A DNA stretch of 64,000 nucleotides from Granulosicoccus antarcticus IMCC3135 (GTDB taxonomy: Bacteria; Pseudomonadota; Gammaproteobacteria; Granulosicoccales; Granulosicoccaceae). The position numbers and the translations under genes are program-made. Positions 7,853-45,631 of the stretch are shown here, one piece after another; position 1 is the stretch's first letter, and each line of letters opens with the position of its first letter. The stretch covers positions 3,840,501 to 3,904,500 of the forward strand of contig NZ_CP018632.1 in the NCBI RefSeq assembly GCF_002215215.1, written 5' to 3'. The notes beneath the pieces were generated by a model. That model was not told the DNA's origin, made no database searches, and worked only from the letters and a program-made list of their open reading frames with translations.

Positions 7853-8731
7853 TTACAAACCGGAAAGCCAACTGCGGATCGCTTGGCCAATGTCATCGGG
7901 CGAGTCTTCCTGAATGAAGTGCAGGCCCGTCACGGTCACTTCGGTCAGATTTTCCCAACTCCTCACGAAATCGCGGACCCGACCTGTGATGAGAACCCCC
8001 GGATCTGCGTTGATAAATAATTTCGGCAGCGGGTCCTTAAGGAGCCATTGGCTATAGTCAGACACAAGGTCGTGGACGTCTTCTGGAAAGCCCTCCACGG
8101 GAACCTGACGTGGGAAGGTCAACGTTGGCCTGCGGTCTTCGCCCGGATTGACAAAGGGGCGTTTGTATTCGTCCATTTCTTCGTCGCTTAGAGTCCGCAT
8201 CACAGAACCGGGCAACATCTTTTCAACGAACATGTTATTCCGCAGAATCATTTCCTCGCCAGCAGCAGTGCGCATCGCTTTGAACCCTGCACGGGCTTTT
8301 TCAGGAAAATAGTCCCATGTGGGCAGAGGCATGACGCGCCCTTCCATGAACGCGATGCCTTTGACGGCCGCTTTGTTATTAAACGCCCAATGACAACTGA
8401 GCGCGACGCCCCAATCGTGACAGACGAGCGTGACATTATCTTTGACGTCGAGCTGTGACAACAGTTCGGCGACATATCGGCTATGTTCTTTGATTGTATA
8501 GCTGTCCGGGCCGCTGTTATCGAGCTTATCAGAATCGCCCATGCCGATGAGATCAATCGCGATCAACCGTCCCATCCCTGATAGATGCGGCATGATGTTA
8601 CGCCACAGAAACGACGACGTCGGATTTCCATGTACGAATACAATGGGATCGCCGGTGCCTTCATCGATATAGGCCATTCGTTTTCCAAGAACGGTGGCAA
8701 ATTTTTTCCTGTCTTTAAACGTCGAGCTCAT
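7853..8731 (-). CDS. Haloalkane dehalogenase, HLD-II (LinB-like)
   Basis: Alpha/beta-hydrolase haloalkane dehalogenase, which hydrolyses a carbon-halogen bond to alcohol plus halide. From ATG 8731 it has 292 residues; a GTG at 8749 would add six. Numbering parallels LinB: halide-binding Asn36 in HGNPTSS, nucleophile Asp106 with Trp107 in CHDWGVAL, acid Glu130 in FMEGR, and base His271 in LHFIQEDSP. The GVAL after the nucleophile replaces the usual GSAL and may reshape the pocket. It lies behind the thiolase gene on the minus strand, separated by a terminator-like hairpin. Of the four dehalogenases here it is the only one embedded in a beta-oxidation cluster. Confidence 0.92.
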   Translation of the reverse strand: MSSTFKDRKKFATVLGKRMAYIDEGTGDPIVFVHGNPTSSFLWRNIMPHLSGMGRLIAIDLIGMGDSDKLDNSGPDSYTIKEHSRYVAELLSQLDVKDNVTLVCHDWGVALSCHWAFNNKAAVKGIAFMEGRVMPLPTWDYFPEKARAGFKAMRTAAGEEMILRNNMFVEKMLPGSVMRTLSDEEMDEYKRPFVNPGEDRRPTLTFPRQVPVEGFPEDVHDLVSDYSQWLLKDPLPKLFINADPGVLITGRVRDFVRSWENLTEVTVTGLHFIQEDSPDDIGQAIRSWLSGL

Positions 8732-8750
8732 AGCGTGGTCACTTTTCACT

Positions 8751-8794
8751 ATTAGAAAACGAAACGCCGCCTACGGTTTTCCTTAAGCGGCGTT
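8751..8794 (-). terminator. Terminator-like hairpin after thiolase
   Basis: AACGCCGC (8763-8770) pairs with GCGGCGTT (8787-8794). Read on the minus strand the stem is followed by TCGTTTTCTAAT, a weak T-rich tract. It lies just past the thiolase stop and before the dehalogenase, so it probably ends or attenuates the hydroxyacyl-CoA dehydrogenase-thiolase transcript. Confidence 0.6.
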
Positions 8795-8803
8795 AAAGGG
8801 AAT

Positions 8804-10021
8804 TTACTGAGACACGTTTTCGAAAACAGCAGTTAAGCCTTGTCCACCACCGATACACATCGTCTCAATACCGTATTTCGCGTCGCGACGATCCATTTCG
8901 CGCAACAACCCGGCAAGAATGCGCCCACCCGTCGCGCCGACGGGGTGACCCAACGAGATGCCCGAGCCATTGACGTTCATGCGATTGAAATCGTCAGCCC
9001 CGAATTTCCACACGCGCGTACACGCCAGAACTTGCGCAGCGAAGGCCTCGTTGAGTTCGATCAGGTCGATATCTTTCAAAGCCAATCCCGCACGGTCCAA
9101 GGCCTTGGCAGTGGACGGAACTGGCCCAATTCCCATCACATTGGGCGCAACGCCTGCCACGGCCCAGCTGACTAAACGTCCATAGGCCTTGAGACCCAAT
9201 TCGTCAGCCTTGGCTTTGGTCGTTACGATACAAGCAGCGCCGCCGTCGTTTTGGCCACTGGCATTGCCTGCTGTCACAGTTGATTTGGGATCAATAGATT
9301 GACGGAGCGCCTTGAGCTTGCCCAAGGATTCAACCGTTGCCTCGGGGCGGGGGTGTTCGTCTTTGGTAATCGTTTCTTCGCTTTTTCGCGTCTTAACAAC
9401 GATTGGAATTATCTCTTCGTCGAACGTTCCATTCTTCTGCGCATTAATTGCACGGCGATGGGATTCAACAGAGAACACATCCTGCTCTTCACGCGAAATA
9501 TCATATTCTTCGCGCAGATTTTCAGCCGTCTCTAGCATTCCGCCTTCGACGGGAAAGTTGATGCCGCCCGCAGTTATCCGTCCGCGAGCGAGCGAGTCTT
9601 CGAAGGACGCGCTCGCACCACGTATGCCCCAACGGTTCTGGGTCGAATAGAACGGTGCATTTGACATGGATTCTGCACCACCAGCAATGACTAGATCAGA
9701 ACCACCCGTAGCGACCTGCATCACCGCGTTAATCACAGTCTGAAGACCGGAACCGCAGCGACGGTCCAGCTGCAAACCGCCAATACCAATAGGCAGTCCC
9801 GCATCCAAACCTACGACGCGACCAAGGGCTGGAGCGTCCATTGATGGGTAACACTGGGCGAACAGCACATCGTCAACTTCATCGACCGGCAGGTTTGTGC
9901 GCTCAATCAACCCCTTCAGTACGGCAGCACCGAGCTCGTGTGCATGCAAAGACTTGTATTGCCCACCATATCGACCCACAGCGGTGCGAACGGGTTCACA
10001 TATTACGACGTCAGTTAACAT
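8804..10021 (-). CDS. Acetyl-CoA acyltransferase (thiolase)
   Basis: Thiolase of 405 residues cleaving a 3-oxoacyl-CoA with CoA, the last beta-oxidation step. Nucleophile Cys89 lies in LDRRCGSGLQ; the other thiolase signatures NEAFAAQ, GHPVGATGGR and CIGGGQG are present. The ATG at 10021 has AAAGGA about eight bases upstream, and an upstream in-frame extension lacks support. It follows the 3-hydroxyacyl-CoA dehydrogenase by 4 bases in the same transcript. Degradative rather than biosynthetic use is inferred from the neighbours. Confidence 0.92.
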   Translation of the reverse strand: MLTDVVICEPVRTAVGRYGGQYKSLHAHELGAAVLKGLIERTNLPVDEVDDVLFAQCYPSMDAPALGRVVGLDAGLPIGIGGLQLDRRCGSGLQTVINAVMQVATGGSDLVIAGGAESMSNAPFYSTQNRWGIRGASASFEDSLARGRITAGGINFPVEGGMLETAENLREEYDISREEQDVFSVESHRRAINAQKNGTFDEEIIPIVVKTRKSEETITKDEHPRPEATVESLGKLKALRQSIDPKSTVTAGNASGQNDGGAACIVTTKAKADELGLKAYGRLVSWAVAGVAPNVMGIGPVPSTAKALDRAGLALKDIDLIELNEAFAAQVLACTRVWKFGADDFNRMNVNGSGISLGHPVGATGGRILAGLLREMDRRDAKYGIETMCIGGGQGLTAVFENVSQ

Positions 10022-10025
10022 TTGG

Positions 10026-11543
10026 TTATTCCTTTTCATTCTTTTCATTGATGTGCATTAGAGAAAGACCAAGTTTTGCGCGCCTGATAAGCCACATGCT
10101 TGGACGATAGCGGGGATCTCCTGTAGCGATTTGGAGATTCTCCAGTATTTCAAGAACCCGTAGCGGTCCAATTTGATCACCAAGCGCGAGTGGGCCAAGG
10201 GGATATCCCAATCCACCAGTCACACCAGCGTTGATATCAAGTGGTGTTGCAATACCCATTTGTGCAATTTCGCATGCGGTGTTGACGATATTTGCGGCGA
10301 CACGTTGCGCAACAAATCCTGGAGAGTCTTGAATGACTGTTATGGATTGGCCTGCGCGCGACAGGCAGGCAACAAGTGCATCCACCCGCGCGGAGTCGGT
10401 GGCCGGAGTGGTCATGACAGTTTGGCGACCGCCTTGTTTTAGCGCCGTTGGGAACAGCAGATCGATGGCCAATGTCCGCGCAGGATCATGCCCAGCGTCG
10501 ATGCATGTAGTGGTCGCATCCCGACCAATCGGGGCTACAATAATCGTGGCAGCAGTTTTTGCAGGTGCCAAGGTCCCGCCGCCCGCGATCAGCAAAGTAG
10601 CTAGCGTTTCGGCTTCGGGGCCGCTTGCATCAATGAAATAGCTGCCAGCATTGGCATTTGAAGCGTGGGGTTCTGTCGGTTCAACACGCTTGTTATCGAC
10701 ATAAGTATAGAACCCGGCACCGGTCTTTCGACCCAAGAGGCCAGCAGCAATGCGTCGGCGCACAAGGGGAGCCGGTCGATAACGGGGCTCTTGATAAAAG
10801 GCGTCGTAAATTTCGTGCAGAACCCGCCCAGACACATCCAAACCCGTGAGGTCGAAAAGTTCGAATGGCCCCATGGGAAGTCCCAAAGACCCCCGTATGA
10901 TCCGATCCACATCGACCGGTTCGGCGACCGTTTCCTGAACGATGCGCAGGCCTTCGGTATAAAGTCCGCGACCCGCGTGATTCACGACAAACCCCGGATT
11001 ATCCGAGCAAATCACGGGGTGATGCTGGGTGCGCTTAACGATGTCCAAAAGAATCTGAACAACCTTTGGATCGGTGCGTTCACCGCTGATCACTTCAACA
11101 ACGCGCATCAACGGAACAGGATTGAAGAAATGCAGTCCAGCAACGCGATCAGGATGTTCGCACCCAAAGGCAATTGAGGTCACTGATAAAGAAGACGTAT
11201 TGGTGCACAGCAGGGTGTCACGGCCAACAACGGCTTCCAGTTCTTTGAACAGGGCCCGCTTGATATCTAGATCTTCGAGGATTGCTTCGATGACAACGTC
11301 TGCCGAAGCCAAATCGCTCAGGTCGCTCACGGGTTTGATACGGCTCACTCGATCGTCTTTGACATCTTGAGAAATTCGATTTTTCGTGACCGCCCGATCC
11401 AACAAACCAACGACAAAGCTGATTGCCTTGTCAGCCGCTCCATCTGCTTGATCATAGGCAAGCACAGTCGCTCCGCTTTCGGCGGCCCATTGGATGATTC
11501 CGCGACCCATGGCACCGGTGCCGATGACAGCAATAGTCGTCAT
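10026..11543 (-). CDS. 3-hydroxyacyl-CoA dehydrogenase, PaaH-type
   Basis: A 505-residue NAD-dependent enzyme oxidising 3-hydroxyacyl-CoA to 3-oxoacyl-CoA. N-terminal Rossmann motif GTGAMGRG, then two 3HCDH C-terminal domains: one around DNPGFVVNHAGRGLY and a second around DSPGFVAQRVAANI. This duplicated architecture is that of the PaaH/3-hydroxyadipyl-CoA dehydrogenase group. That would fit a dicarboxylyl-CoA substrate, though a fatty-acyl role is possible. First gene of the minus-strand operon with the thiolase; its promoter shares the 129-base divergent region with the FadJ-like gene. Confidence 0.88.
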   Translation of the reverse strand: MTTIAVIGTGAMGRGIIQWAAESGATVLAYDQADGAADKAISFVVGLLDRAVTKNRISQDVKDDRVSRIKPVSDLSDLASADVVIEAILEDLDIKRALFKELEAVVGRDTLLCTNTSSLSVTSIAFGCEHPDRVAGLHFFNPVPLMRVVEVISGERTDPKVVQILLDIVKRTQHHPVICSDNPGFVVNHAGRGLYTEGLRIVQETVAEPVDVDRIIRGSLGLPMGPFELFDLTGLDVSGRVLHEIYDAFYQEPRYRPAPLVRRRIAAGLLGRKTGAGFYTYVDNKRVEPTEPHASNANAGSYFIDASGPEAETLATLLIAGGGTLAPAKTAATIIVAPIGRDATTTCIDAGHDPARTLAIDLLFPTALKQGGRQTVMTTPATDSARVDALVACLSRAGQSITVIQDSPGFVAQRVAANIVNTACEIAQMGIATPLDINAGVTGGLGYPLGPLALGDQIGPLRVLEILENLQIATGDPRYRPSMWLIRRAKLGLSLMHINEKNEKE

Positions 11544-11672
11544 AGTATTTCCTTTTGATGTTTCAGCGAAATGAAAGAGAGATTCGATATCGCAATTGTG
11601 TTTTACTTAATGGTATTGATATATCATTATTGAAGTCATTGCAAGTGAGTTTGAATTTTGCGGGAGCATATG

Positions 11673-14517: not shown

Positions 14518-14533
14518 GGATTTAGGTCGCGAA

Positions 14534-17792: not shown

Positions 17793-18530
17793 GGACTGTG
17801 CTCCTTATGCTGGATCGGTGAAATTTGGGGCTCTTTTTTCCAGAAACGCAGCTTTGCCTTCCTGAAAGTCAATTGAATTGAAACATATTTCTTGAGACGC
17901 CAGCTCGAATGCCAGCGCATCCTCTAATTCACTTGGACTGTGTTGAAACGCAGCCTTGGTGTAACAAAGAGCGGTGGCCGAAGCTGCGGCGAACTTCGCG
18001 GCTTGGGATTGCGCAACGCTTAGGGCTGTTCCGTTTGCGACCACTTTTTCAACTAGACCAAGATGCGCAGCCTCGGCCGCCGAAAGGACATTGCCCGTCA
18101 TCAAAAAGTACCGCGCCGCGCCGACCCCCATGCGCGCGCGCAAGAACCAAACAGCGCCCATGTCCGGAATAAGACCTATCTTGGTGGCTGCCCCACTAAA
18201 TTTTGCATCTTCCGCCGCAATAACTACATCGCACGCCGCTGCGATCGACATGCCACCTCCCGCAGCGTTACCCTCGACAGCGGCAATCATCGGTTTTTTC
18301 GCTGTAGCGATAAGGCGAACAATGTGCTGAAGGTCAGTTAACCGTTCTACGGATTTCGTAATATTTGAGTCTTTCATGCCCTTCACGTCACCGCCCGCAC
18401 TGAACGTACTTTCTGCGCCAGTGATAACGATGGCCCTGCATTTGGGGTCTAGGGTCGTCTTTTCCAGATGTGCAATTAGGTCTGACTTGACGCCTGGGGC
18501 CAAAGCATTTCGCCCGGACGGGTAATTTAG

Positions 18531-19192: not shown

Positions 19193-19263
19193 TATTATTG
19201 TTGCAACGCCGTTGCGAAGTTCGAGATCCGCGCGTTCTATGGAAGAGAGCATCCCAATCAACC

Positions 19264-31681: not shown

Positions 31682-31685
31682 CGTA

Positions 31686-32629: not shown

Positions 32630-32764
32630 TGAAAAATCAGTTGCCTTGTGGAATCAGATAGGGTGTTACATGAATTGCGCTGCCTAGGGCATGTCATCAA
32701 TTAAAAGATAGATATTTTGACTTGTCGACCCGTTATAGTTGACGCCTACAGAGAACAGGCGTCG

Positions 32765-33540: not shown

Positions 33541-33630
33541 TGACAGGCCCTAGTGGTGTAACCGCTTGATAAATTCCAGTTATAGTCTAACTTCATAATA
33601 GTACTTTGCAACCTGTTGAAGTGATTGAGA

Positions 33631-34768: not shown

Positions 34769-34771
34769 CCT

Positions 34772-34832
34772 ACTAGTGGGTCGGTCGGAAAACAAGGTGA
34801 GTATTACCTTATTCCCCGATCGACCCACTAGT
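34772..34832. repeat. 61-bp MITE-like palindrome
   Basis: Arms of about 27 bases, beginning ACTAGTGGGTCG on both strands with about five mismatches, meet at a short centre near 34800. TA sits within CTAG at both ends. It looks like a miniature element of the IS630/Tc1 type or a solo hairpin left by one. It lies directly beside IS630 copy A. Confidence 0.7.
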
Positions 34833-34895
34833 TCGTACAATTCGATGATCCATGAATTATCCGGGCTGGTGAGACATGATCCTTTAGCCCTGCAT

Positions 34896-35771
34896 CTAGT
34901 GCTTTTTTATCCAACCTGCTATTGCCACACCAATCTCATCAGGTGAATCCTCCTGCATAAAATGAAGGCCGGGTACCGTCACTTCTGTCAGATTTTTCCA
35001 TGTCCGAACGAAGTCCTCCACGGAACCGGAAATCATCACCCCGGGATCGGCATTGATCCAGAGTTTGGGGACTGGGGTTTCCACCAGCCATTGGGAGTAG
35101 GCGGCAACCCATTGGAATACATCAGCGGGCTCTCCCTCGATAGGGATTTGTCGAGGAAAGGTCAGCGTTGGGCGACGATCTTCACCGGCATTGAGAAACG
35201 GTCTGCGATACTCAGCCATTTCTTCGTCACTCAGGTCTCTCAGAATGGAGCCTGGCAGAATTTTCTCAACAAACAGATTGTTGTCGAGAACCATCTGCTC
35301 TCCAGCCGGCGAACGCATCGCCTGGAAGCCTGCGCGAGCTCCTTCTGGAAAATTGTCCCAGCTGGGTATCGGGGCGACAATGGCTTCCATGAAAGCGATT
35401 CTCCGGACCGCTTCGGAGTGTGTATGAGCCCAATGGAAGCCTAGTCCGGACCCCCAGTCGTGCAAAACCAATGTCACGTTTTCCTTGACACCCAGCTGTT
35501 CCAGAAGCTCAAACAGATAGTCGCGCTGTTCTGCAAAGGTGTAGCTATCAGGCCCGCTGTTATCAAGTTTTTCAGAGTCGCCCATACCGATCAGGTCTGG
35601 TGCGATCAATCGGCCAAGTCCACTCAGGTGCGGCATGACGTTGCGCCATAGGTAGGACGACGTTGGGTTGCCATGCAAAAATACAATCGGGTCGCCTTCA
35701 CCCTCTTCGATGTAGGCCATTTGCTTGCCACGAACAGTGGCGAATTTCTTTCGATCGATAAAACCTGCCAT
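34896..35771 (-). CDS. Haloalkane dehalogenase, HLD-II
   Basis: Second LinB/DhaA-like dehalogenase, 291 residues from ATG 35771 (ATG 35819 would add 16 residues but runs into the divergent promoter). Asn35 in HGNPTSS, nucleophile Asp105-Trp106 in LHDWGSGL, Glu129 in FMEAI and His270 in LHFMQEDSP form the expected catalytic pentad. Similar to but clearly different from the enzyme at 7853. It is divergent from a TetR gene with a palindrome between them, an arrangement recalling dhaR-dhaA of rhodococci. No alcohol dehydrogenase sits beside it; a 61-bp palindrome and IS630 lie downstream. Confidence 0.92.
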
Positions 35772-35800
35772 GACTCTGGTCTCGTTTTGTGATGAGATGG

Positions 35801-35830
35801 ATTGTAGCGGAACGTTCATTCTATTACAAT
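35801..35830. promoter_or_regulatory. Candidate TetR operator between dehalogenase and regulator
   Basis: ATTGTA (35801-35806) and TACAAT (35825-35830) are inverted around GAACGTTC (35810-35817), itself a palindrome. The site lies in the 66-base gap between the divergent dehalogenase and TetR starts, where it could repress both. Confidence 0.5.
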
Positions 35831-35837
35831 GGTCAGT

Positions 35838-36446
35838 ATGCCAAGAGAAAAATCAGCATCCAGAACAGATCTGCTTGACACTGCCATGAAAGCCTTTTGG
35901 GAAATCGGTTTTCATGTGGTGTCAATGAGTGATCTGGTACGAGAGACCGGTGTGAGTCGCGCCGGTATTTACAGCGACTTTGCGAACAAGCGAGAGCTGT
36001 TCCATGCCTGTCTTGATCGTTATCAGGAAGTCGTGGTGGCTCCGCACTTTGCCCCGGTTGAGGCCGATGGCGCAGGAATCGATAGCATTGAGACCTACCT
36101 GAACAATCTACTGATGCGCTTCGAAGATGCGGGCGGGTTTGGCAAGGGATGTCTTGTTGGAAACACGCTTACTCAGATCCCCGAAGAAGCGCTGGAAACC
36201 CGACAAAAGCTGTGCGCCCATTGCGACCGTCTGACGAGTGGCTTCCATCAGGTGATCGCAAATGAAAATGGTGCTCACGGACCGCTTACCCAAGCCGAAA
36301 TCACTGATCTTGCGCGCTACTCCATGATCTCGGTGCAGGGCATTTGGTCCTATTCTCGGCTGACCGAAGATGTTTCCGAACTGCGCGCGGCTTCTGACAC
36401 CCTCGTTTCGGTTCTGAAGGCACGGTTGCGCGGGTCGACTCAATAA
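35838..36446 (+). CDS. TetR-family regulator beside HLD-II
   Basis: TetR/AcrR repressor of 202 residues from ATG 35838 (ATG 35829 adds three). N-terminal [26 protein letters not shown]; the C-terminal ligand domain includes [16 protein letters not shown]. The divergent layout and the palindrome in between suggest it represses the dehalogenase and itself, released by a haloalkane or product (inference by analogy with DhaR). Confidence 0.88.
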
Positions 36447-36448
36447 CC

Positions 36449-36721
36449 TCACCTCTGCCGGATGGGGATTTCCAGTTCATCGCACTGCATGTCGAAACCG
36501 CATAGAGTGACAGCGCGAGCACCTGCCAGATCGGAATCGCCTGTGTCGGGAATGATGAAATCACCCGCACGTGGTCGACATATGTCGACCCGCAAATGCC
36601 ATTCGCGCCGTTTAAAATTGATTCGCACGAGATCGGGTCCGTATTCCGTGAGAAACGCGCGAATGCCTGTTGGTGCGACGGGTGGGGTTACCGGTATGAC
36701 GCTCGTGGCGCAGAGTGTGGT
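36449..36721 (-). pseudogene. Unidentified gene fragment, no start
   Basis: An open frame of about 90 codons on the minus strand without a plausible start, ending TGA at 36449. Part of it reads GIRAFLTEYGPDLVRINFKR and ends FDMQCDELEIPIRQR, which looks protein-like in composition. I do not recognise it. It may be the 3' end of a gene truncated by the IS21-like end immediately beyond. Confidence 0.3.
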
Positions 36722-36732
36722 TTAGAGGTGAC

Positions 36733-36856
36733 AAGTGAGATCTGGTGGCAGATAAAGTGGTTTCATTCGCACGCAAAGTGGTTTGAGCAGCGCCGATAGT
36801 GTCACGTAAAGTGATCGGGAAATCGCGATAAGTGCAGTTCGGGCGCTCGATAAGTG
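36733..36856. repeat. Periodic AAGTG repeats, IS21-type end remnant
   Basis: AAGTG occurs at 36733, 36755, 36776, 36809, 36830 and 36852, plus TAGTG at 36797. Most are spaced 21-22 bases apart, several within a longer AAAGTGgtttg-like unit. Phased short repeats of this kind mark the ends of IS21-family elements. No ist gene adjoins, so I read it as a left-over terminus. Confidence 0.55.
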
Positions 36857-36869
36857 CGAGCCGTTACAC

Positions 36870-37478
36870 CTATGGGTCGATCTGAGACGGACGCCAGGAA
36901 TCAATCGTATAGAGCGCCATGTTGATCAGGCCTGTCGACGCGGTAACGTCCCCTGCGTCCCGGCTGATGATCGCTGCTGCCATGAAAACACCTTTCACGA
37001 ACTCCGCAGCGCCCGTCGAGTCCACATCTGAGCGGACTGTGCCTTTTGCCTTGGCGCGATCTACCAGCCCCGTCACTGCGTTCAACAGATCACTGAAATA
37101 GGCATCGGTCAGTTCTCGGATGTCGTTGTTTTGCAGCGCTGCATTCTCGACCGTGGTGTTCAGAAACAAACAACCGAATTTACCGTTGACATCCGATTCG
37201 GGATCAAGACCAGCGGACATGAGATTCGACAACACATCAAGATTATCGGCCTGCTCAATGGGTTGAATGACGGCTTGGTGAATGTCCTGTCCATAGAGCT
37301 TCATCGCCTCAATGAACAGGCCCTCCTTGCCACCGAATTCCGTGCGAATGGCAAAGCGCCCGATGCCGACGATATCTTCGATGGCGCGTATGCCTAGGGT
37401 CTGAAACCCATTTTCGCGAAACGCATCGCGCGCCCGCGCCACAGCTTCTTGCCGGTCATAGCTTTTTTGTCTAGCCAT
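36870..37478 (-). CDS. TetR-family regulator beside HLD-III
   Basis: TetR regulator of 202 residues from ATG 37478. HTH region FRENGFQTLGIRAIEDIVG is followed by IGRFAIRTEFGGKEGLF. The C-terminal part GCLFLNTTVENAAL resembles the TetR_C group of NemR/AcuR-like regulators. It diverges from the exported dehalogenase gene; two tandem palindromes in the intergenic promoter are the probable binding sites. Confidence 0.88.
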   Translation of the reverse strand: MARQKSYDRQEAVARARDAFRENGFQTLGIRAIEDIVGIGRFAIRTEFGGKEGLFIEAMKLYGQDIHQAVIQPIEQADNLDVLSNLMSAGLDPESDVNGKFGCLFLNTTVENAALQNNDIRELTDAYFSDLLNAVTGLVDRAKAKGTVRSDVDSTGAAEFVKGVFMAAAIISRDAGDVTASTGLINMALYTIDSWRPSQIDP

Positions 37479-37532
37479 AATTTTCTTCAAACGTCACGGT
37501 TGCGTGTCATGCCAAATTTTTAAGATGTCTGC

Positions 37533-37585
37533 TTGACAATATATCACTTCGAGTGTAGTGTAACAATCACTTCGTTCGTAGTGAT
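37533..37585 (+). promoter_or_regulatory. Promoter with tandem TetR operators
   Basis: TTGACA (37533-37538) and TAGTGT (37556-37561), 17 bases apart, form a promoter toward the HLD-III gene. Two copies of ATCACTTCG..GTAGTG(T/G)A lie at 37543-37562 and 37566-37585; the second is a near-perfect palindrome (ATCACT-N8-AGTGAT). Centres are 23 bases apart. The first covers the -10/spacer, so binding would block transcription. Confidence 0.65.
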
Positions 37586-37731
37586 AAATTAAATGTCTCG
37601 CCAACATGTTTGGTTGGATGAAGATTCTCGCAGTGAAACAGACGAAGAACAGACACGATTCACAGGCTGACGCGGATGTTCCACGCCACCTGGCGATGCC
37701 CCATTCAACCCCTTCCGATCAGAAATCAATC

Positions 37732-38751
37732 ATGACCAGAAATACGTTCACTCGGTACATCGTGGCCGGGCTGGTGGCGCTTGCGCCGCTGACCACGCCA
37801 GTCCTGGCCGATGCCATCATCTATGAGCAAAGCGCCGACCCGGTTGCTTTCAACGCCGACCCCACGGACGAACGACTCCGACCGTTCGTCGTCGACAAAG
37901 AGGAATACCCGTTCAAGAGCCACTGGTTCGAACGCAATGGTGTGGCGATGCACTACATAGACGAGGGAGAAGGTTTCCCCATCGTTCTGACTCACGGCAA
38001 TCCTGACTGGTCTTTCCTGAACCGCAACATCATCAAGGACATGGCAAGTGAGGCACGCGTGATTGCCTATGACCTGCCAGGGTTTGGTTTTTCAGAATCA
38101 CCTGAAGGGTTCAACTGGACGCCACAAGAACATGCCGAGTGGATCAGTGCGCTGGTGAACGAGCATCTCGGGCTGGAAAAATTCATCCTGGTTGTTCAGG
38201 ACTGGGGCGGGCCCACCGGATTATCCGTAGCCACGGATAATCCTGAAAAAATTGCAGGTCTTGTTGTCAGTAACACATGGGCTTGGCGACCCGCAGCTGC
38301 ACTGGCCGATTTCTCCAAGCAGATGGCGACCCCGGAAATGCAGCGAAAACTGATCGACGAGAACTTCTTTACTGCGGAGATGATGCCGGCCGGAATAAAC
38401 CCGGTTTCCGCCGCGAATACAGCTGTGACGGATGCCTACCGGATGCCGTTCCCGACACCTGAATCCCGCGAAGGTGCGGCATATTTCCCGGTTGCGATCA
38501 TCGATCAACAGGAATGGGTTTCGCAGATTGAAGAACAATTGCACCTCCTGGCTGACAAGCCAGCAGAGCTGATTTTCGGTGAATTGGACGAACTTTTGGG
38601 CCAGAGCGACACCGTCGCCCGATGGAGGGGGCATTTCCCTGATGCGCCAGTGCAATTGCTACCACACGCGAACCACTTCACTCAGGAAGACAGTCCCGAA
38701 AGCTTCGGCCTGTCCTTGCGCCGCCTGCTGAGCCAGATCGAAAGCGAATAG
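37732..38751 (+). CDS. Exported haloalkane dehalogenase, HLD-III-like
   Basis: Dehalogenase of 339 residues from ATG 37732; the frame is open to 37606 but the segment from 37732 is a clear signal peptide (TRNTFTRYIVAGLVALAPL...VLADA). Mature motifs: HGNPDWSFLN, nucleophile Asp157-Trp158 in VQDWGGPTGL, the halide-binding Trp183 in SNTWAW, acid Asp286 in GELDE and His315 in HANHFTQEDSP. VQDWGGP plus NTW points to the HLD-III (DrbA/DmbC) or HLD-I side rather than LinB. A periplasmic location would release halide outside the cytoplasm. It is controlled by the divergent TetR gene. Confidence 0.85.
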   Translation: MTRNTFTRYIVAGLVALAPLTTPVLADAIIYEQSADPVAFNADPTDERLRPFVVDKEEYPFKSHWFERNGVAMHYIDEGEGFPIVLTHGNPDWSFLNRNIIKDMASEARVIAYDLPGFGFSESPEGFNWTPQEHAEWISALVNEHLGLEKFILVVQDWGGPTGLSVATDNPEKIAGLVVSNTWAWRPAAALADFSKQMATPEMQRKLIDENFFTAEMMPAGINPVSAANTAVTDAYRMPFPTPESREGAAYFPVAIIDQQEWVSQIEEQLHLLADKPAELIFGELDELLGQSDTVARWRGHFPDAPVQLLPHANHFTQEDSPESFGLSLRRLLSQIESE

Positions 38752-38754
38752 GCC

Positions 38755-38892
38755 CTACGACTCTTACGGCCCCAAATCGCATACCACACGACTGTTCGCC
38801 CAAACATCACTGCATGGTACGAGCGTTTGTTCGAACGTCCAGCCGGTCTGACTGTACGCAATCTCAAGGTTGCAGGGAATCTGCAACCTTGA
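38755..38892 (+). pseudogene. Glutathione S-transferase C-terminal remnant
   Basis: A 46-codon open tail with no start. It contains RPNITAWYERLFERPAG, the typical C-terminal helix of glutathione S-transferases (PxxxxWYxRxxxRPA). It begins three bases after the dehalogenase stop, so a deletion seems to have fused the dehalogenase cassette to the end of a GST gene. Confidence 0.55.
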
Positions 38893-38927
38893 CCCCGTAA
38901 AAACCCCAACTTCAGAGAAATACGAAA

Positions 38928-39665
38928 ATGAACAACATTGCAAACAAAGTCGTCGTCATCACTGGCGCCAGCAGCGGTCTGGGCGAAGCCACCGCCCGGC
39001 ATCTGGCCTCTCTCGGTGCGATGGTCATGCTCGGCGCGCGCCGCCAGGATCGCCTGGAGGCGATTGCCAACGACATTCGCACCGCCGGTGGCAAAGCCGA
39101 GGTACTGGCTACCGACGTCGCACAGGCCGATCAGGTTCAGATGCTTGTCGACAAGGCGATTGAGACCTTTGGACGCTTAGATGTAATGATCAACAATGCC
39201 GGCTTGATGTCAGTTGCTCCGATTGCTGAGGTTAAGGTTGATGAATGGGATCGCATGATCGACATTAATATCAAAGGGGTACTTTACGGTATCGCCGCTG
39301 CACTTCCAGTGTTTACAAAACAAAATAGTGGTCACTTTATTAATCTCGCTTCCGTTGCTGCACATAAAGTTTCACCGGGAACGGCTGTCTATAGCGGTAC
39401 AAAATTTGCGGTTAAAGCGATAACGGAAGGATTGAGAGCGGAAGTAGGTGGCAATATACGTACAACGCTATTATCACCCGGCTTAATTGATTCTGAATTA
39501 AAATTCGGCAGTTCGGATGAAGCCACCTCTCAATTTGTTCAAAATATTTATAAAGACGCCATTCCAGCGTTATCTATTGCCAAAGCTGTCGCCTATGCGA
39601 TTGAACAACCAGATGATGTCGATATTAACGAAATTATTATCAGACCAACAATTCAAGACTTCTAA
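38928..39665 (+). CDS. Short-chain dehydrogenase, chimeric GC-rich/AT-rich gene
   Basis: Classical SDR of 245 residues: TGASSGLG cofactor motif, NNAG, Ser in NLASVAAH and YSGTKFAVK with the catalytic Tyr/Lys. The first ~83 codons are GC-rich with GC-ending codons; from about 39170 onward, near FGRLDVMINNAG, the codons become AT-rich and stay so. No frame break occurs. This looks like homologous recombination between two SDR genes at a conserved segment, and it marks the border of the AT-rich cassette. Possible role: oxidation of an alcohol from dehalogenation. Confidence 0.85.
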   Translation: MNNIANKVVVITGASSGLGEATARHLASLGAMVMLGARRQDRLEAIANDIRTAGGKAEVLATDVAQADQVQMLVDKAIETFGRLDVMINNAGLMSVAPIAEVKVDEWDRMIDINIKGVLYGIAAALPVFTKQNSGHFINLASVAAHKVSPGTAVYSGTKFAVKAITEGLRAEVGGNIRTTLLSPGLIDSELKFGSSDEATSQFVQNIYKDAIPALSIAKAVAYAIEQPDDVDINEIIIRPTIQDF

Positions 39666-39997
39666 TCTAATGTGAGTTGATCCTGCCTTTTTTGTATTTT
39701 GTTTGGCAGGTCAACGTGAAACAGTTGCTTTAAAAGGTATAAAAAATGAAAAAAACACTCGTTATTGGCGCTAATGGCCAGATTGGTAAAATAGTGGTTG
39801 AGTTGCTTCACAATCAGGATCGCCCAGTGCTCGCAATGGTTCGTAGCAAACAACAAGCTGAGAAGTTAGAAAATATGGGTGTAGAGGCTGTTGTTGGCGA
39901 TCTTGAAACTGATTTTGAACACGCTTTTAAGGGCTGCGATAAAGTAGTATTTAGTGCAGGTTCTGGCGGTAATACAGGCGACGATAAAACACTTTTA

Positions 39998-41306
39998 GGG
40001 CTTGTGAATAAATAAACTATATATTTATATTGTTTGTTTATTCTCGTGGTCTTATCGTGTAATTCCACTCACCATGAAACCGATCAGGGTATAAGTTGAT
40101 CGATTCCATTTGCTCGTCAGTAACCTTTTTTCCCTTTTCATAGGGATTCTGGTCAAGCTCACAATGCACCTCGAGTCCTTCCCGAGTTTTTGTCGCTCCG
40201 ATCAGCTCGACGACTGTTCGATAGTCCTCCAGTGGCTTGCCGCGCCAGTTCAACGTGATGAAGCTGAATAAACGGTGCTCAATCCGATTCCATTTGCTGG
40301 TTCCTGGAGGGAAATGACTGACGCTAATGGCAATGCCCAACTCATCGCTGAGCTTCTGCAGCTCCAGCTTCCAGAGCCTGCTGCGGTAACCGTTGCTGCC
40401 GCCACAGTCGGCTGTGACGAAAATTTCGCGCGTGGTGCCGTAGTAGCGTTTCTGACCCAGCTCTTGCCACCAGCGACGCAGGCTGTGCACAGCGAACTCG
40501 GCGGTGTCGGCACTGATGCCGACACTCACCCATGCCTCGTTGTCACCGATATCGTAAACCCCATAGGGGCTTACCCGACCCAGTTCGCCCTTGAAATCGT
40601 GAGTCTTCACCGGCTCCGGTTTACCCTTCGGGCGGTACTCCTTGCCGCCGTTTTTATAGGACCCTACCAGTTCCTTTTTCTTGGTGTCCACTGACAGGAC
40701 GGGCTCTCCTGCCTTGATCCGCCGCTTGCTCTGGCGAGCAATATGACGAAACTGTGCATCACGATCCTCATGCTGGGCACCTTCGAGCTTCTTGGCGTTG
40801 CCTTGCAGCGAATAACCCAGCTTCTTGAGCAGATGACCCACCGTGCGATAGCTCACCGTGTGACCAAGCTGGCTCAACTCGCCAGCGAGCACCCGTAGAC
40901 TCTTGAGCGTCCAGCGTAGCGGCGACTGCGGGTCCCCGCGCGTGACCGGCTCCACCAGTGATTCCAGTGCACCGAGCAGCTTGGGATCCTCAGACACTTT
41001 TGTTGGTCGGCCAGCGCCGGGCTGGCGAACCCGCCTTGCCAACTGAGGCTGAGCATCGCCTCGTTCTCGCAATTCTTTAATACCACGAGTGATGGTGATA
41101 CGCGACAGGTCGGTGGCTCGATGAACAATCGCTATGCCACCATAGCCCAGAGTCATTGCTTCCGAGGCGGCCCACTCACGTCGTCCACGCTCATCAAGTG
41201 AGGAGAGAATCTGAGAATATTGTTGCCGAATTTGCTTTTCGCTTTTCATTATCGAATAAGCTTAGCAGATATAATCAAAATGTATATATAATATATTCAC
41301 AAGCCC
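39998..41306 (-). mobile_element. ISAzo13-family element, copy 1
   Basis: A 1309-bp element with inverted ends GGGCTTGTGAATA and a 3-bp target duplication TTA (39995-39997, 41307-41309). One transposase gene on the minus strand. It splits the SDR-like gene at 39746-42355. A diverged relative sits at 59518-60846. Confidence 0.9.
40038..41249 (-). CDS. ISAzo13-family transposase, copy 1
   Basis: DDE transposase of 403 residues of the 'Rhodopirellula transposase' kind. Acidic residues lie in VLSVDTKKKEL, FVTADCGGSNGYRS and GTSKWNRIEHRLFSF. It spans nearly the whole element, and the frame is intact. The protein is clearly homologous to the one at 59573-60805 but differs throughout, so the two copies arrived independently. 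Confidence 0.9.
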   Translation of the reverse strand: MKSEKQIRQQYSQILSSLDERGRREWAASEAMTLGYGGIAIVHRATDLSRITITRGIKELRERGDAQPQLARRVRQPGAGRPTKVSEDPKLLGALESLVEPVTRGDPQSPLRWTLKSLRVLAGELSQLGHTVSYRTVGHLLKKLGYSLQGNAKKLEGAQHEDRDAQFRHIARQSKRRIKAGEPVLSVDTKKKELVGSYKNGGKEYRPKGKPEPVKTHDFKGELGRVSPYGVYDIGDNEAWVSVGISADTAEFAVHSLRRWWQELGQKRYYGTTREIFVTADCGGSNGYRSRLWKLELQKLSDELGIAISVSHFPPGTSKWNRIEHRLFSFITLNWRGKPLEDYRTVVELIGATKTREGLEVHCELDQNPYEKGKKVTDEQMESINLYPDRFHGEWNYTIRPRE

Positions 41307-41538
41307 TTAATAGATTTATGGGCAGCAAAAAAAGCAGTTGATTATTCTTTAAAGGAAGGTATACAACATTTTGTAATGGTAAGTGGTTTAGGCGCACAAG
41401 ACCCTGACGAATTTGAATCAGAAATAAAACCCTATTTGGTGGCAAAGTATTTTTCCGATTATTATTTAATAGAAAGTAGTTTAGATTATACGATTTTACG
41501 CCCCGGTAGTTTAACCAATGAAAATGGAACGGGTTTAG

Positions 41539-42200
41539 TCGTATCGTAGAAACCCACGTCCTCCGGACGTGGTCAGAGGGCTGAGGCTTTGCCGATAGTC
41601 CGACTCAATGGTAAACCTCTCGTGAGCTATCCCCATAGCCTCATTCGAGGAATACCAATGAGTCGTTTTAAGAAGCTATCACACACGATATGGCACTGCC
41701 AATATCATGTGGTTTGGACACCCAAGTATCGGTACCGGGTTCTTGCCGGTTCGGTGAAACAAGAAGTATCCAGTTGTATTAGGGCTTTTTCGGAGCAGAA
41801 GAAGTGCGAAGTGGTGGAGTTGAACGTGCAGATCGACCACGTTCACTTGATCGTGTCGATACCGCCGAAGCTGTCGGTATCGGATTATGTCGGAATGGTG
41901 AAGGGGAGGACGGCAATACGAGTTCTCCAGCGTTTCAAAGAGTTACGGACAAAGCCGTATTGGGGCAATCACTTCTGGACAAAGGGGTACTGCGTTGACA
42001 CGGTGGGTTTGGATCTGGAAAAGATCCAGGCTTATGTTCGGTATCAAGATAAGAAGGATCAACAAATAGAGCAGCGCCAGCTCGGGCTGTAGTTATGTAA
42101 ATGCTGGGGGGTTGGCTTCCTGGTCGTCTCTGACGGCCAGGCATACCGGGCCCCTATGGGGCCGACTCAAGCCCCTGCGCTCCGCGTAGGGATCTTTTAG
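41539..42200 (+). mobile_element. IS200/IS605-family element, copy 2
   Basis: Same 662-bp sequence as copy 1, inserted 3' of TTTAG (41534-41538) and ending in TTTAG (42196-42200). It lies inside the third part of the interrupted SDR-like gene. I see no differences from copy 1 in the stretches compared. Confidence 0.92.
41658..42092 (+). CDS. tnpA: IS200-type Y1 transposase TnpA, copy 2
   Basis: 144-residue HUH transposase identical to that at 18650-19084 (HVHLIV motif, catalytic Tyr in VRYQDKK). Its host here is an AT-rich gene while copy 1 sits in a GC-rich one, so the element moved after the two DNA blocks came together or entered both in parallel. Confidence 0.95.
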   Translation: MSRFKKLSHTIWHCQYHVVWTPKYRYRVLAGSVKQEVSSCIRAFSEQKKCEVVELNVQIDHVHLIVSIPPKLSVSDYVGMVKGRTAIRVLQRFKELRTKPYWGNHFWTKGYCVDTVGLDLEKIQAYVRYQDKKDQQIEQRQLGL

Positions 42201-42417
42201 TTAGAACGACAAGAGCTGAAAGTTTTAAAGAGTTAATCATTCCACGAGAAGATGTAGCAGCGACAATTACGTATTGTTTAAACGCCGATAATACTAAAGG
42301 AAAAACGTTTGAGCTATATAGTGGGAAAGAATCCATTCGTGAATCTTTAAAATAAGCTAATCATTCTGTTCTACAAAACAAAAACTTAACACCAATATAA
42401 TGATTAAAGAGAAAAAG

Positions 42418-42861
42418 ATGAAAAATACATTAGAACAAAGAATTCAAAAATTAGAAGATTTAGAAGCTATAAGAACACTCCAAGCTACATATGGTCATTA
42501 TGTAGATAAAGGTTGGAATGAGAAAGAGATGGATATTAAAAAGCTCACTGAAATATTTACCGAAGATGCTTTATGGGAAGCGCCAGCAGCTGGAGTATTA
42601 GCTAATGGACACAAAGAAATAATCGAATCTTTTAAATCTTTTGATGCAAAGAATAAATTCTTTATTCATAGTTTTACTAACCCCATTATTGAAATTAATG
42701 AAGATAAAGCGACAGCAAAATGGATTCTTTTTTCTCCTGCTATTGATGGCGAAAAAGTAATTTGTATGCTTGCCAGTTATGATAATGATTATGTTAGAAC
42801 GACAAATGGTTGGCGTATTAAAAGTTTAAGACTCAACATGGCTAATGTACTTGGCGCTTAA
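42418..42861 (+). CDS. SnoaL-like (NTF2-fold) protein
   Basis: A 147-residue alpha+beta-barrel protein of the SnoaL_4 type, with the N-terminal helix LEDLEAIRTLQATYGHYVDKGW and FTEDALWEAP. Family members are isomerases, dehydratases or ring-modifying enzymes; no catalytic role can be assigned. ATG 42418 follows GAGAAAAAG; ATG 42400 would add six residues. Codons are AT-rich, like the next three genes, with which it forms a cassette. Confidence 0.75.
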   Translation: MKNTLEQRIQKLEDLEAIRTLQATYGHYVDKGWNEKEMDIKKLTEIFTEDALWEAPAAGVLANGHKEIIESFKSFDAKNKFFIHSFTNPIIEINEDKATAKWILFSPAIDGEKVICMLASYDNDYVRTTNGWRIKSLRLNMANVLGA

Positions 42862-42985
42862 TAATAGTCATTCAAGCATTAACATTGGGCTAATCGAATT
42901 AGAAGGTCGTTTAAAATCCTCCCAGGTAAATGTGTTGAATTCATTTTTCACTCAGAAGTATTATGTAACAAACTAAGGAATAATC

Positions 42986-43960
42986 ATGACTCAAAATAAA
43001 ACAATCTATCTTAATAAAGTACTTGAAGAACATTCTCAAGATATGACAAGTAAAGTAGTTGCCATTACAGGTACTACAAGTGGTACGGGATTTGTATTCG
43101 CAAGAGAAGTTGCTAAGAAAGGGGCTACAGTCCTACTGCTTAATCGTACAAGTGCAAGATCAGAAAATGCCTATAAGCAGTTAACCGAAGCAGTTCCAAG
43201 TGGAAAATTTGAAGCAATAGCGTGCGATTTGCAAGATTTTGAAAGTGTAAAACAAGCAGCTGAACAAATTAAATCGGAATATAGTGTTCTTGATGTTTTA
43301 GTCAATAATGCTGGTATTATGGCTGTAAAAGATGAAGCGACTAAAGATGGTTATGATGTTCAAATGCAAACAAATGCCATATCTCACTTTCTTTTAACCA
43401 AAGAATTGTATCCTTTACTTAAAAACAGTTGTGAAGCTAGAGTCATAAACCAAACGTCGTTAGCTAGATTAGGTGGACCATTAGAATCTGCCTATTTTGA
43501 GAAAAATGGAGGTAACTTAGGAGGTAATGGCACACTTGAAGAAACCGCAAATTTTCAAGGCGCTAGATGGGAGCGTTATCACCAAACTAAATTGGCAAAT
43601 GCCACTTTTACCTATGGTTTAAAAAAGAAACTTTTAGAGGCTAACGTTAAAAATATTATTTCATTATTGGCGCATCCTGGCGTAGCCATAACCAACCTTC
43701 AAGCAACTTCAGCTGAAACAGGTGGAATGGATGTTAACGGAGGCGTTATGAGCCAAGCACAGTCTGCTGAAGATGGCGCCGCTGGAATTATTAGAGCTGC
43801 TATGGATAAAGAGGCGAAATCTGGTGATTTTTATGGACCAACTGAAGGGATAAGTGGCTTTCCAAATTTGTTAGAACCAGAAGAACTACTTTTTGACGAA
43901 TCTAATGTCGCTATCAATTGGAATGGGTGTGAAAAAGCTGTTGGTGAATTTAAAATATAA
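42986..43960 (+). CDS. SDR oxidoreductase (retinol dehydrogenase-like)
   Basis: A 324-residue extended-loop SDR with TGTTSGTG, NNAGIMA and the catalytic YHQTKLAN. Ser is in NQTSLARLGG. Related proteins oxidise or reduce alcohols/aldehydes. AAGGAA precedes the ATG. It lies 124 bases after the SnoaL-like gene in the AT-rich cassette and may serve the alcohol from the downstream dehalogenase (inference). Confidence 0.85.
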   Translation: MTQNKTIYLNKVLEEHSQDMTSKVVAITGTTSGTGFVFAREVAKKGATVLLLNRTSARSENAYKQLTEAVPSGKFEAIACDLQDFESVKQAAEQIKSEYSVLDVLVNNAGIMAVKDEATKDGYDVQMQTNAISHFLLTKELYPLLKNSCEARVINQTSLARLGGPLESAYFEKNGGNLGGNGTLEETANFQGARWERYHQTKLANATFTYGLKKKLLEANVKNIISLLAHPGVAITNLQATSAETGGMDVNGGVMSQAQSAEDGAAGIIRAAMDKEAKSGDFYGPTEGISGFPNLLEPEELLFDESNVAINWNGCEKAVGEFKI

Positions 43961-44012
43961 AATCACAAACGGTTGGTAATTTCTTTAAATCGGCATTAGA
44001 GTTTTAAATAAT

Positions 44013-44711
44013 ATGCAAAACTACCTTCAAGAAATAGAAACAATCACTTCTAAAGCAGGTGAAACCGTTCCTTTGCAAAGAAAAGCTTTTGAAGGAGGTT
44101 TTTCTTTTAAGCAATTGCCTTTTGATAAACAACTAGCGATATGGAGTTATATCTGGACGAACACCAAAGTGTATAGAGCAGAAATGTTTTGTTTGTATTT
44201 CTTGGAGAAGCATATTAAAAACAAAGATGAAATGCTGGCCGCTTGGCCAACGATTAAATTATGGCAAGACAAAATTAATCGATGGGAAACAAGCGATGGC
44301 ATTTCAAAAATATATGCTCAATTAGTAGAATATGATGCAGCATTAATTTTGCCAACGTATAAAAAATGGAATACGTCTACAAACCCATGGCATAGAAGAC
44401 AAAGCATAGTGGGTTTACTTTATTACAGCGCTCATAGAAAACACTATTTACCTTTTCAAGTACTTATAGATTTGGTAGCACTTTTAATTTCTGACCACGC
44501 TTATTATGTTGAAAAAGGAGTGGGTTGGACACTTAGAGAAATAGGAAATATATACCCTAAAGAGCAGGAAGGATTTCTATTTGAAAACGCAACTAAAATT
44601 TGTGCTTACGGATATAGCGCGGGTACAGAAAAGTGGGATAAAAAAAAACGAGAAAAACTGAAGCAAATTAGAAAAGCAGCAAGAGGTTTAAATCGCAAAA
44701 ATTCAATTTAA
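44013..44711 (+). CDS. AlkD-type DNA-alkylation repair protein
   Basis: A 232-residue HEAT-repeat protein of the AlkD/AlkC (COG4912) kind. Landmarks are NPWHRRQSIVGL and the late VEKGVGWTLREIG, which surround the DNA-binding groove in AlkD. AlkD excises positively charged alkylated purines. It lies 52 bases after the SDR and 20 bases before a haloalkane dehalogenase, so repair of DNA damaged by alkyl halides would be co-expressed with their detoxification. Whether catalytic residues all remain cannot be judged here. Confidence 0.78.
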   Translation: MQNYLQEIETITSKAGETVPLQRKAFEGGFSFKQLPFDKQLAIWSYIWTNTKVYRAEMFCLYFLEKHIKNKDEMLAAWPTIKLWQDKINRWETSDGISKIYAQLVEYDAALILPTYKKWNTSTNPWHRRQSIVGLLYYSAHRKHYLPFQVLIDLVALLISDHAYYVEKGVGWTLREIGNIYPKEQEGFLFENATKICAYGYSAGTEKWDKKKREKLKQIRKAARGLNRKNSI

Positions 44712-44731
44712 ACATTTAAAAAGGAATAAAT

Positions 44732-45631
44732 ATGTCAAACAACAAACCAATATCAGCAGCGTTTACTTTTGAATCTAAATTTCAAGTAGTATTAGATTCT
44801 AAAATGCATTATGTAGATGAAGGAGACAAAAATTCTAAAGATACTTTTTTACTCATACACGGAAACCCTACATCAAGTTATTTATGGCGAAACATCATTC
44901 CGTATGTAAGTGCCTTAGGTCGTGTGGTTGTTCCTGATCTTATTGGAATGGGTAAGTCTGACAAGCCCGATATAGATTATACATTTGAAGACCATATTAC
45001 CTATTTAGATGCGTTTATTGAAAAGTTAGCCTTAAAAAATATCATTATAGTCATTCAAGATTGGGGTTCTGCTTTGGGTTTTAACTATGCCAATCAGCAT
45101 AGAGAAAATATAAAAGGGATTGTTTTTTTTGAAGCTATGTCTCAAGTTTCTTATTGGAAAAATACGACTAAAGAGACAGAAACATTATTTAAAAAATTTC
45201 GTGACCCTGCAGAAGGGCATGAAATGATTGTTAAAAACAACTTCTTTATTGAGGCTATGCTACCCATGATGGCGGGCAGAGAATTAACTCAAGAAGAAAT
45301 GGACCATTACCGAGCGCCTTATTTGGAAGAAAAGAGCCGTAAACCACTGCTTATGTGGCCTGGTCAAATTTCGTTTGATGGCGTCCCAAAATTTACCACT
45401 GACATTGTTAATTCATATAATGAATACCACAAAAATTCAGATGTGCCTAAGTTGTTATTTTATGCAGAGCCAGGACTAATCATTAATCGAGAATTAGGTG
45501 AGCATATCGCTGAAACGTGGAAAAATATTACTGCAGTAGATTTAGGTGAAGGAAAGCATTATCTACAAGAGTCGCATCCACACGAAATTGGTGAAGGTAT
45601 TGTCGATTGGTATAAAAAAGTTATTAAATAA
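44732..45631 (+). CDS. Haloalkane dehalogenase, HLD-II, AT-rich
   Basis: Third HLD-II-type enzyme, 299 residues. Asn45 in HGNPTSS, Asp110-Trp111 in IQDWGSAL, Glu134 in FFEAM and His276 in KHYLQES complete the pentad. It differs from the other dehalogenases in lacking the SGPDSY segment and in many surface positions. Its AT-rich, Lys/Asn-heavy composition suggests origin in a low-GC bacterium, perhaps Bacteroidota. AAAGGAA lies upstream of ATG. It ends 18 bases from an IS630 element. Confidence 0.92.
   Translation: MSNNKPISAAFTFESKFQVVLDSKMHYVDEGDKNSKDTFLLIHGNPTSSYLWRNIIPYVSALGRVVVPDLIGMGKSDKPDIDYTFEDHITYLDAFIEKLALKNIIIVIQDWGSALGFNYANQHRENIKGIVFFEAMSQVSYWKNTTKETETLFKKFRDPAEGHEMIVKNNFFIEAMLPMMAGRELTQEEMDHYRAPYLEEKSRKPLLMWPGQISFDGVPKFTTDIVNSYNEYHKNSDVPKLLFYAEPGLIINRELGEHIAETWKNITAVDLGEGKHYLQESHPHEIGEGIVDWYKKVIK

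Follow-up and report, generated by a model that had tools for sequence, protein, structure and literature searches.

How did four different haloalkane dehalogenase (HLD) genes come to lie within 38 kb of the genome of Granulosicoccus antarcticus IMCC3135, and could they act together? The genes, labelled HLD1 to HLD4, are found in a 64,000-nucleotide stretch of contig NZ_CP018632.1 (positions 3,840,501 to 3,904,500 of the forward strand), which is called the window here and whose coordinates are used throughout; a fifth gene, elsewhere on the contig, is HLD5. The segment 32237-45631, which carries HLD2, HLD3 and HLD4, is probably one inducible organohalogen-processing module derived from two versions of one kind of gene set. 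Its left part (DUF130, HLD2, TetRa, TetRb, HLD3 and the 5′ portion of SDRa) would represent an alphaproteobacterial version, and its right part (the 3′ portion of SDRa, then the NmrA-like, SnoaL, SDRb, AlkD and HLD4 genes) a Bacteroidota-type version.

The dehalogenase genes and their relatives

All four genes are present and intact where a preliminary description of this DNA had placed them: HLD1 at 7853-8731 and HLD2 at 34896-35771, both on the minus strand, which that description had left unspecified, and HLD3 at 37732-38751 and HLD4 at 44732-45631 on the plus strand. Their starts (8731, 35771, 37732 and 44732) fall inside or at the longest open reading frames and agree with the lengths of homologues. 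HLD1, HLD2 and HLD4, of subfamily II (HLD-II), score 399, 420 and 365 bits against the NCBIfam haloalkane dehalogenase model NF002938, the cut-off of which is 241 bits. HLD3 is named subfamily-III-like, and not a member of the equivalog, because it scores 218 bits against the cut-off of 466 bits of its best model, NF002873 (haloalkane dehalogenase), an equivalog model narrower than subfamily III. As had been proposed, each gene retains a full catalytic set in the alignment (in which the Haloferax row is off by one residue at the acid position): N42 D112 W113 E136 H277 in HLD1, N51 D121 W122 E145 H286 in HLD2, N45 D110 W111 E134 H276 in HLD4, and N90 D157 W158 D286 H315 in HLD3. The first three pentads have the subfamily II form (Asp-His-Glu plus Asn and Trp) stated for DadB (excerpt of PMC3938430), and that of HLD3 has the subfamily III form (Asp-His-Asp plus Asn and Trp; excerpt of PMC10503415). 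The genes had also been said to differ in sequence, subfamily and base composition; the sequences and clades do differ, but the subfamilies are two, not four, and only HLD4 deviates in composition, its GC content at third codon positions (GC3) being 0.27 against 0.56-0.64 in HLD1-HLD3.

The 7.78-Mb contig holds five such genes, four of them inside 38 kb and HLD5 2.6 Mb away, a grouping beyond what chance would give. Weaker alpha/beta hydrolase matches at contig positions 5509922, 2060025 and 3595799 are excluded from this count, that at 2060025 scoring 56 bits against the cut-off of 241. The gene at about 2060025 (G000:C1; L007 1459-2370, minus strand), whose product reaches no NCBIfam cut-off, contains HDRGARV and YWHWFF stretches that presumably resemble a signature of fluoroacetate dehalogenases.

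In a dehalogenase tree of 52 rows, the two halves of which are separated by branches that the program flagged as long, a 33-row half (support 100/100) contains HLD1, HLD2 and HLD4 together with LinB and HanR. HLD5 is sister to HLD2 plus a 99% identical metagenome copy (100/99) within the HanR/Rhodobacterales clade, near the base of which HLD1 forms a long branch with weak support (92/62); HLD2 shares 85% nucleotide identity with HLD5 and is 70% identical to HLD1. HLD4 and a Psychrobacter protein are sisters (99/91) in a clade of mostly Bacteroidota proteins, and because HLD4 is 95% identical to that protein and 91% to proteins of Cellulophaga and Flavobacterium, its gene crosses phyla. HLD3 clusters with a Monaibacterium and a metagenome protein (100/100) in the half with the subfamily III proteins of Haloferax; its nearest neighbours belong to subfamily III both in the tree and by fold.

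The nearest solved relative of HLD1 and HLD2 is PDB 4BRZ/4C6H, which we take to be HanR, a haloalkane dehalogenase of marine Rhodobacteraceae. HanR, described as a single enzyme, has the same pentad as HLD1 and HLD2 and shares a clade with HLD2 and HLD5; HLD1 has diverged from it around the nucleophile elbow. For HLD3 the nearest solved relative, by sequence and by fold, is the subfamily III protein DhmeA of Haloferax mediterranei (8CKP, 8OOH; excerpt of PMC10503415). The two share the Asp acid and the Asn/Trp halide pair, with 32% identity over the fold match, but HLD3 differs from DhmeA in its signal-peptide-like N-terminus, its TetR partner and the presence of a neighbouring HLD-II gene. 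The N-terminus is signal-like by a hydrophobicity measure, as it is in 61 of the 120 HLD3 relatives listed (P0126-P0245) and not in the rest, so that cellular location in the HLD3 family seems variable.

Elsewhere, an HLD-II gene 56% identical to HLD2 lies about 200 bases before an HLD-III-like gene in Ktedonobacter sp. (L069 8889-10873), and HLD4-like genes (61-63%) stand end to end with a gene judged by eye to be quinone-oxidoreductase-like at L170 8384-10323 and L171 8568-10477. The metagenome proteins P0015 (HLD4-like) and P0171 (HLD3-like), for both of which the longest contig is 14190, are possibly a linked pair.

Two apparent versions of one gene set

The left half has its counterpart in Monaibacterium marinum, where the order is TetRa-HLD2-DUF130-TetRb-HLD3-SDRa (74, 78, 40, 70, 75 and 68% identity). 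All six genes are shared with the window, in which the DUF130-HLD2-TetRa block is inverted and two insertion sequences (IS) lie between DUF130 and HLD2. TetRa (35829-36446, plus strand; Pfam TetR_N) is a TetR-family regulator gene divergent from HLD2, and TetRb (36870-37490, minus strand; Pfam TetR_C_13 above the cut-off and TetR_N just below it) is divergent from HLD3. DUF130 (32237-32629, minus strand) encodes a 130-aa protein of unassigned family, with no Pfam or NCBIfam match, and is common to HLD2-type and HLD3-type neighbourhoods. A 15-row HLD3-family alignment, scanned against genome contigs, matched at least 80 HLD3 loci. Within 10 kb, the 14 closest among the matches listed (L025-L038, identity at least 54%; two on contigs shorter than 7 kb) have an HLD-II gene in 3 cases, an SDRa homologue in 6 and a DUF130 homologue in 8, and the other 66 loci listed have them in 1, 0 and 0 cases.

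The right half is a low-GC cassette on the plus strand, in which the IS-interrupted NmrA-like gene (three pieces: 39746-39997, 41307-41538 and 42196 to about 42350) is followed by genes, identified by Pfam, for a SnoaL-like protein (42400-42861), a second short-chain dehydrogenase, SDRb (42986-43960), and an AlkD-like DNA alkylation repair protein (44013-44711), and then by HLD4. The Flavobacterium sp. 14A locus runs from HLD3 through TfoX-like, NAD-binding, DUF130, SDRa, NmrA-like, SnoaL, SDRb and AlkD genes to HLD4. The window is colinear with this order from SDRa to HLD4, with 90% nucleotide identity over 42968-45632; the identities are 93% for SnoaL, 95% for SDRb and 88% for AlkD. Homologues of DUF130, SDRa, HLD4 and HLD3 also lie inside 7 kb in Labilibaculum filiforme.

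The junction within SDRa

On nucleotide comparison, the left and right halves meet inside one mosaic short-chain dehydrogenase (SDR) gene, SDRa (38928-39665, plus strand), with change-points at 39210-39373. Its GC3 is 0.71 at the start and 0.31 at the end, changing at about 39210, and a step of this size is reached by none of 10000 permutations; the steps in the SDRa genes of Monaibacterium and Flavobacterium are reached by 1575/2000 and 191/2000 permutations, respectively. Nucleotide allegiance to Monaibacterium or to Bacteroidota flips at 39303-39373 in six tests (three Bacteroidota comparators, each with all sites or with codon positions 1 and 2), for which the permutations reaching the observed value number 1, 0, 0, 0, 0 and 0 of 10000. 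The SDRa protein tree, of 7 rows, is mostly unresolved. Most simply, the halves would have been joined by homologous recombination between two SDR genes.

Putative operators

In 6 of 11 Monaibacterium-order loci (L025 and L176-L185, picked as best matches to HLD1), a TetRa homologue (41-74% identical) adjoins the HLD-II gene and is divergent from it; in L183 and L184, a 30% TetRa match lies 1.3 kb from the HLD-II gene. HLD5 is likewise accompanied by a TetRa homologue, 62% identical. The putative TetRa operator, AGAATGAACGTTCC (35809-35822, minus strand), lies between TetRa and HLD2 and is a palindrome also seen in Rhodobacterales: GAATGANCRTTC occurs in 7 of the 8 aligned TetR/HLD-II spacers (window, HLD5, L025, L176, L177, L179, L180 and L181), and the eighth has a variant. 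The degenerate pattern AGAATGAWCRTTCY occurs nowhere in the 7.78-Mb genome except at HLD2 and HLD5 (reversed control, 0); because it was built from HLD2/HLD5-type sites, the informative part is the absence of further sites. As a single strand the TetRa-HLD2 spacer has no stable fold (z 0.69), and the palindrome is therefore taken for a protein site. Between TetRb and HLD3 lies another, unlike palindrome, the putative TetRb operator TCACTTCGTTCGTAGTGA (37567-37584), the pattern of which is shared with Monaibacterium and occurs at one place in the genome; a palindrome of this type is not evident in the spacer of the Marivita locus.

Selection and distribution

The ratio of nonsynonymous to synonymous substitution (dN/dS) is 0.08 for HLD2/HLD5 and 0.09 for HLD3 against Monaibacterium (dS 1.7), and for HLD4 it is 0.11 against Flavobacterium (dS 0.40) and 0.07 against Labilibaculum (dS 1.75); the HLD1/HLD2 comparison yielded no dS value. 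These sequence-derived values (0.07-0.11) indicate strong purifying selection on HLD2/HLD5, HLD3 and HLD4. The cassette genes SDRb, SnoaL and AlkD give 0.08, 0.09 and 0.21.

HLD-II genes are found in 1 of 26 congeners (60% identity), and a match is present in 7 of the 57 genomes compared, the own genome included. They occur in 49 of 390 genomes of the Monaibacterium order and in 6 of 397 of the Flavobacterium family, and the HLD3 family in 2/390 and 3/397, respectively; in both samples the centres (G057 and G061) are counted among the hits, and scoring was confined to the top few candidates of each genome. Two separate HLD-II places are present in one genome per sample (G124, G803) among the matches listed. 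In G114 and G110, a broken HLD-II fragment of about 115-125 residues (L183 8984-9313 and L184 10255-10584) lies beside an intact HLD-II gene and, judged by its sequence, is a decayed tandem copy.

A putative organohalogen-processing module

Gene content, complete pentads, colinearity, the mosaic gene, common palindromes and purifying selection, all read directly from the DNA, are best explained by a TetR-controlled module for organohalogen detoxification or degradation with alkylation repair attached, in which the enzyme activities, the substrates, and the export and role of HLD3 are predictions. Each TetR would repress its divergent dehalogenase gene via its own palindromic operator and would be released on binding a halogenated compound or its product. 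HLD2 and HLD4 (and, elsewhere, HLD1 and HLD5) would convert alkyl halides into alcohols by hydrolysis through the family's Asp-ester mechanism, with the chemistry described for HLDs (excerpt of PMC10503415), and HLD3, the hydrophobicity of which suggests export, may do so outside the cytoplasm. The dehydrogenases would process the alcohols, and AlkD would repair alkylated DNA. Later insertions include at least two IS elements.

Natural algal organohalogens are a plausible source of marine exposure (excerpts of PMC8490876 and PMC5613140). In Zobellia galactanivorans, ZGAL_234/ZGAL_235 comprise an HLD-domain protein beside a TetR-family gene and are up-regulated on kappa-carrageenan (excerpt of PMC5613140). 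As in the window, a TetR gene adjoins a dehalogenase-type gene in a marine bacterium, and the authors propose a role in coping with algal halogenated compounds; unlike the window, there is one dehalogenase-type gene, beside a carrageenase gene (same excerpt), and the likeness drawn here is one of description. No account of a module like that in the window was found in the open-licence PMC literature on dehalogenase clusters, TetR regulators and alkylation repair. The Rhodococcus dhaA cluster resembles the HLD1 and HLD2 loci in having a regulated HLD-II gene close to genes for alcohol and aldehyde dehydrogenases; to our knowledge, it has one dehalogenase and neither an HLD-III, an AlkD nor a mosaic SDR gene.

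Several observations weigh against a single inducible module. HLD3 falls below every NCBIfam cut-off, and subfamily III is weakly active, with a member, OleB, whose main function is that of a beta-lactone decarboxylase (excerpt of PMC10503415). Eleven of the 14 closest HLD3 loci listed, two of the 14 being on contigs shorter than 7 kb, have no HLD-II gene within 10 kb; the Flavobacteriaceae HLD3 carriers G454 and G621 lack HLD-II matches at E 1e-40, and neither SDRa nor DUF130 is matched there in 20 kb. The HLD3/HLD-II pairing is thus not obligatory. Among the HLD3 loci listed, AlkD adjoins HLD4 in just one other locus. On amino-acid sites the mosaic test falls short of significance (1015/10000 permutations), IS elements stand at two module edges, and what suggests regulation by TetRa and TetRb is the palindromes.

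A broader proposal, which can be advanced only tentatively, is that the segment belongs to a transferable two-compartment organohalogen defence module, with an exported HLD-III, cytosolic HLD-IIs (two with their own TetR operators), SDRs and DNA alkylation repair, which is present in Alphaproteobacteria and Bacteroidota and two phylum-level versions of which recombined here within a gene common to both. If true, this would give a physiological role to subfamily III, the members of which are described as weakly active outliers with function open (excerpt of PMC10503415). An HLD-III gene equipped with a TetR gene and palindrome of its own, and lying with HLD-IIs of two clades near an alkylation repair gene, makes the function of the subfamily testable.

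Alternatively, HLD3 may be a hydrolase or decarboxylase of another pathway, like OleB, and the module may serve some other electrophile or lipid. This is unlikely, although the sub-cut-off scores of HLD3, the low activity of a subfamily that includes OleB (excerpt of PMC10503415), and nitroreductase and old-yellow-enzyme-type genes among the neighbours in other loci are in its favour; HLD3 has the complete subfamily III pentad, its nearest fold is that of DhmeA, and it is linked with HLD-II genes of two different clades. Among the annotated genes from HLD2 to HLD4 there is no OleA- or OleC-type gene (these were not searched for by family), and a thiolase and a CoA ligase gene lie near HLD1. 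OleB genes are accompanied by oleA, oleC and oleD.

Insertion sequences and other origins

The preliminary description had the genes assembled by IS activity into an island with layered substrate ranges, under exposure to halogenated compounds. IS genes do adjoin HLD2 and HLD4 as it stated, although none adjoins HLD1, the neighbours of which are CoA ligase and thiolase genes. Between DUF130 and HLD2, an IS5-type element (inverted repeats 32684-32704/33533-33553) is followed by an IS630-type transposase gene (33625-34768; Pfam; the pair spans 32684-34768, plus strand), and an IS630-type transposase gene (45719-46801, plus strand; Pfam DDE_3) marks the right edge of the cassette; the match to Flavobacterium sp. 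14A stops at 45632, before this gene. These elements, on the DUF130 side of HLD2 and 3′ of HLD4, could have had a role in rearrangement or delivery. Within the NmrA-like gene lie an ISAzo13-family element (about 39998-41306; 38-nt inverted repeats, 79% complementary), the two flanking matches of which overlap by three bases, and an IS200-type element (about 41539-42195), of which the genome has six near-identical copies. Because both are inside a gene of the cassette, both are later than the cassette.

Gathering by IS is therefore opposed by the position of these two elements, and also by the recurrence of HLD2 and HLD3 as a unit in Monaibacterium, by the colinearity of the HLD4 cassette with Flavobacterium sp. 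14A through the NmrA-like gene and into the SDR gene beside HLD3, and by a junction that is itself a mosaic SDR gene. The one like pair seen, of IS200-type elements (18526-19193 and about 41534-42202), brackets HLD2-HLD3 distantly and leaves HLD1 and HLD4 outside; no like IS copies were found flanking the dehalogenase genes, although copies of the IS5 and IS630 elements in the own genome were not searched for. Even with the different clades of the dehalogenases and the IS630-type gene at the low-GC end of the cassette in its favour, independent gathering by IS under halogenated-pollutant exposure is thus quite improbable, and assembly as a composite transposon is rejected on the colinearity and the IS position inside the NmrA-like gene. 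The mosaic gene would instead exemplify a degradation cluster built by recombination of homologous gene sets, not by IS transposition alone. A plasmid origin was not found, as 31000-50000 of the window matches two plasmid records over 245 and 130 bases; the best-matching plasmid HLD shares 42% identity with HLD4 and 60% with HLD1.

There is likewise little probability that the dehalogenase genes piled up passively, without common function, in an insertion-tolerant island. The region is rich in IS and recombinase genes, one cassette gene is broken and HLD1 stands apart, as such a process would leave them, but strong purifying selection on HLD2/HLD5, HLD3 and HLD4, the shared palindromes and the recurrent linkage argue otherwise. 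Origin of all four by duplication in place, to which the closeness of HLD2 to HLD5 (with a TetRa-type gene at each) and of HLD1 to HLD2 might point, is almost certainly wrong, in line with the preliminary description, and is rejected on the 52-row tree, in which the four genes fall in different clades, those of HLD3 and HLD4 being distant; moreover, HLD5 is 2.6 Mb off and the TetR genes beside HLD2 and HLD5 share just 62% identity.

The HLD1 locus and neighbouring genes

HLD1, 26 kb from the HLD2-HLD4 cluster, lies beside beta-oxidation genes. It is downstream of, and co-oriented with, genes for 3-hydroxyacyl-CoA dehydrogenase (10026-11543) and thiolase (8804-10048; both minus strand, Pfam), and faces plus-strand genes for an alcohol dehydrogenase (3687-4817; Pfam ADH_N/ADH_zinc_N), an aldehyde dehydrogenase (4836-6251; Aldedh) and an AMP-binding CoA ligase (6304-7842; AMP-binding). 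The products of HLD1 would feed these enzymes, and a route from alkyl halide to acetyl-CoA is plausible, with the pathway link suggested by gene proximity. In 17 other stretches around HLD genes (L170-L174 and L176-L187), the thiolase, 3-hydroxyacyl-CoA dehydrogenase, alcohol dehydrogenase and CoA ligase have no match, and the aldehyde dehydrogenase has one in 2 (33%, several kb off). The HLD1 cluster (3600-11600) is matched in 8 of 26 congeners, merely by patches of 38-180 bases.

A GFA-family gene at 31337-31681 (minus strand; Pfam GFA) is matched at 98% identity shortly before the start of the window (L188 13222-13515). At 51396-54552 (minus strand) lie three tyrosine recombinase genes in succession, their ends overlapping and all three with Pfam Phage_integrase, which we take to be a "recombinase in trio" element.

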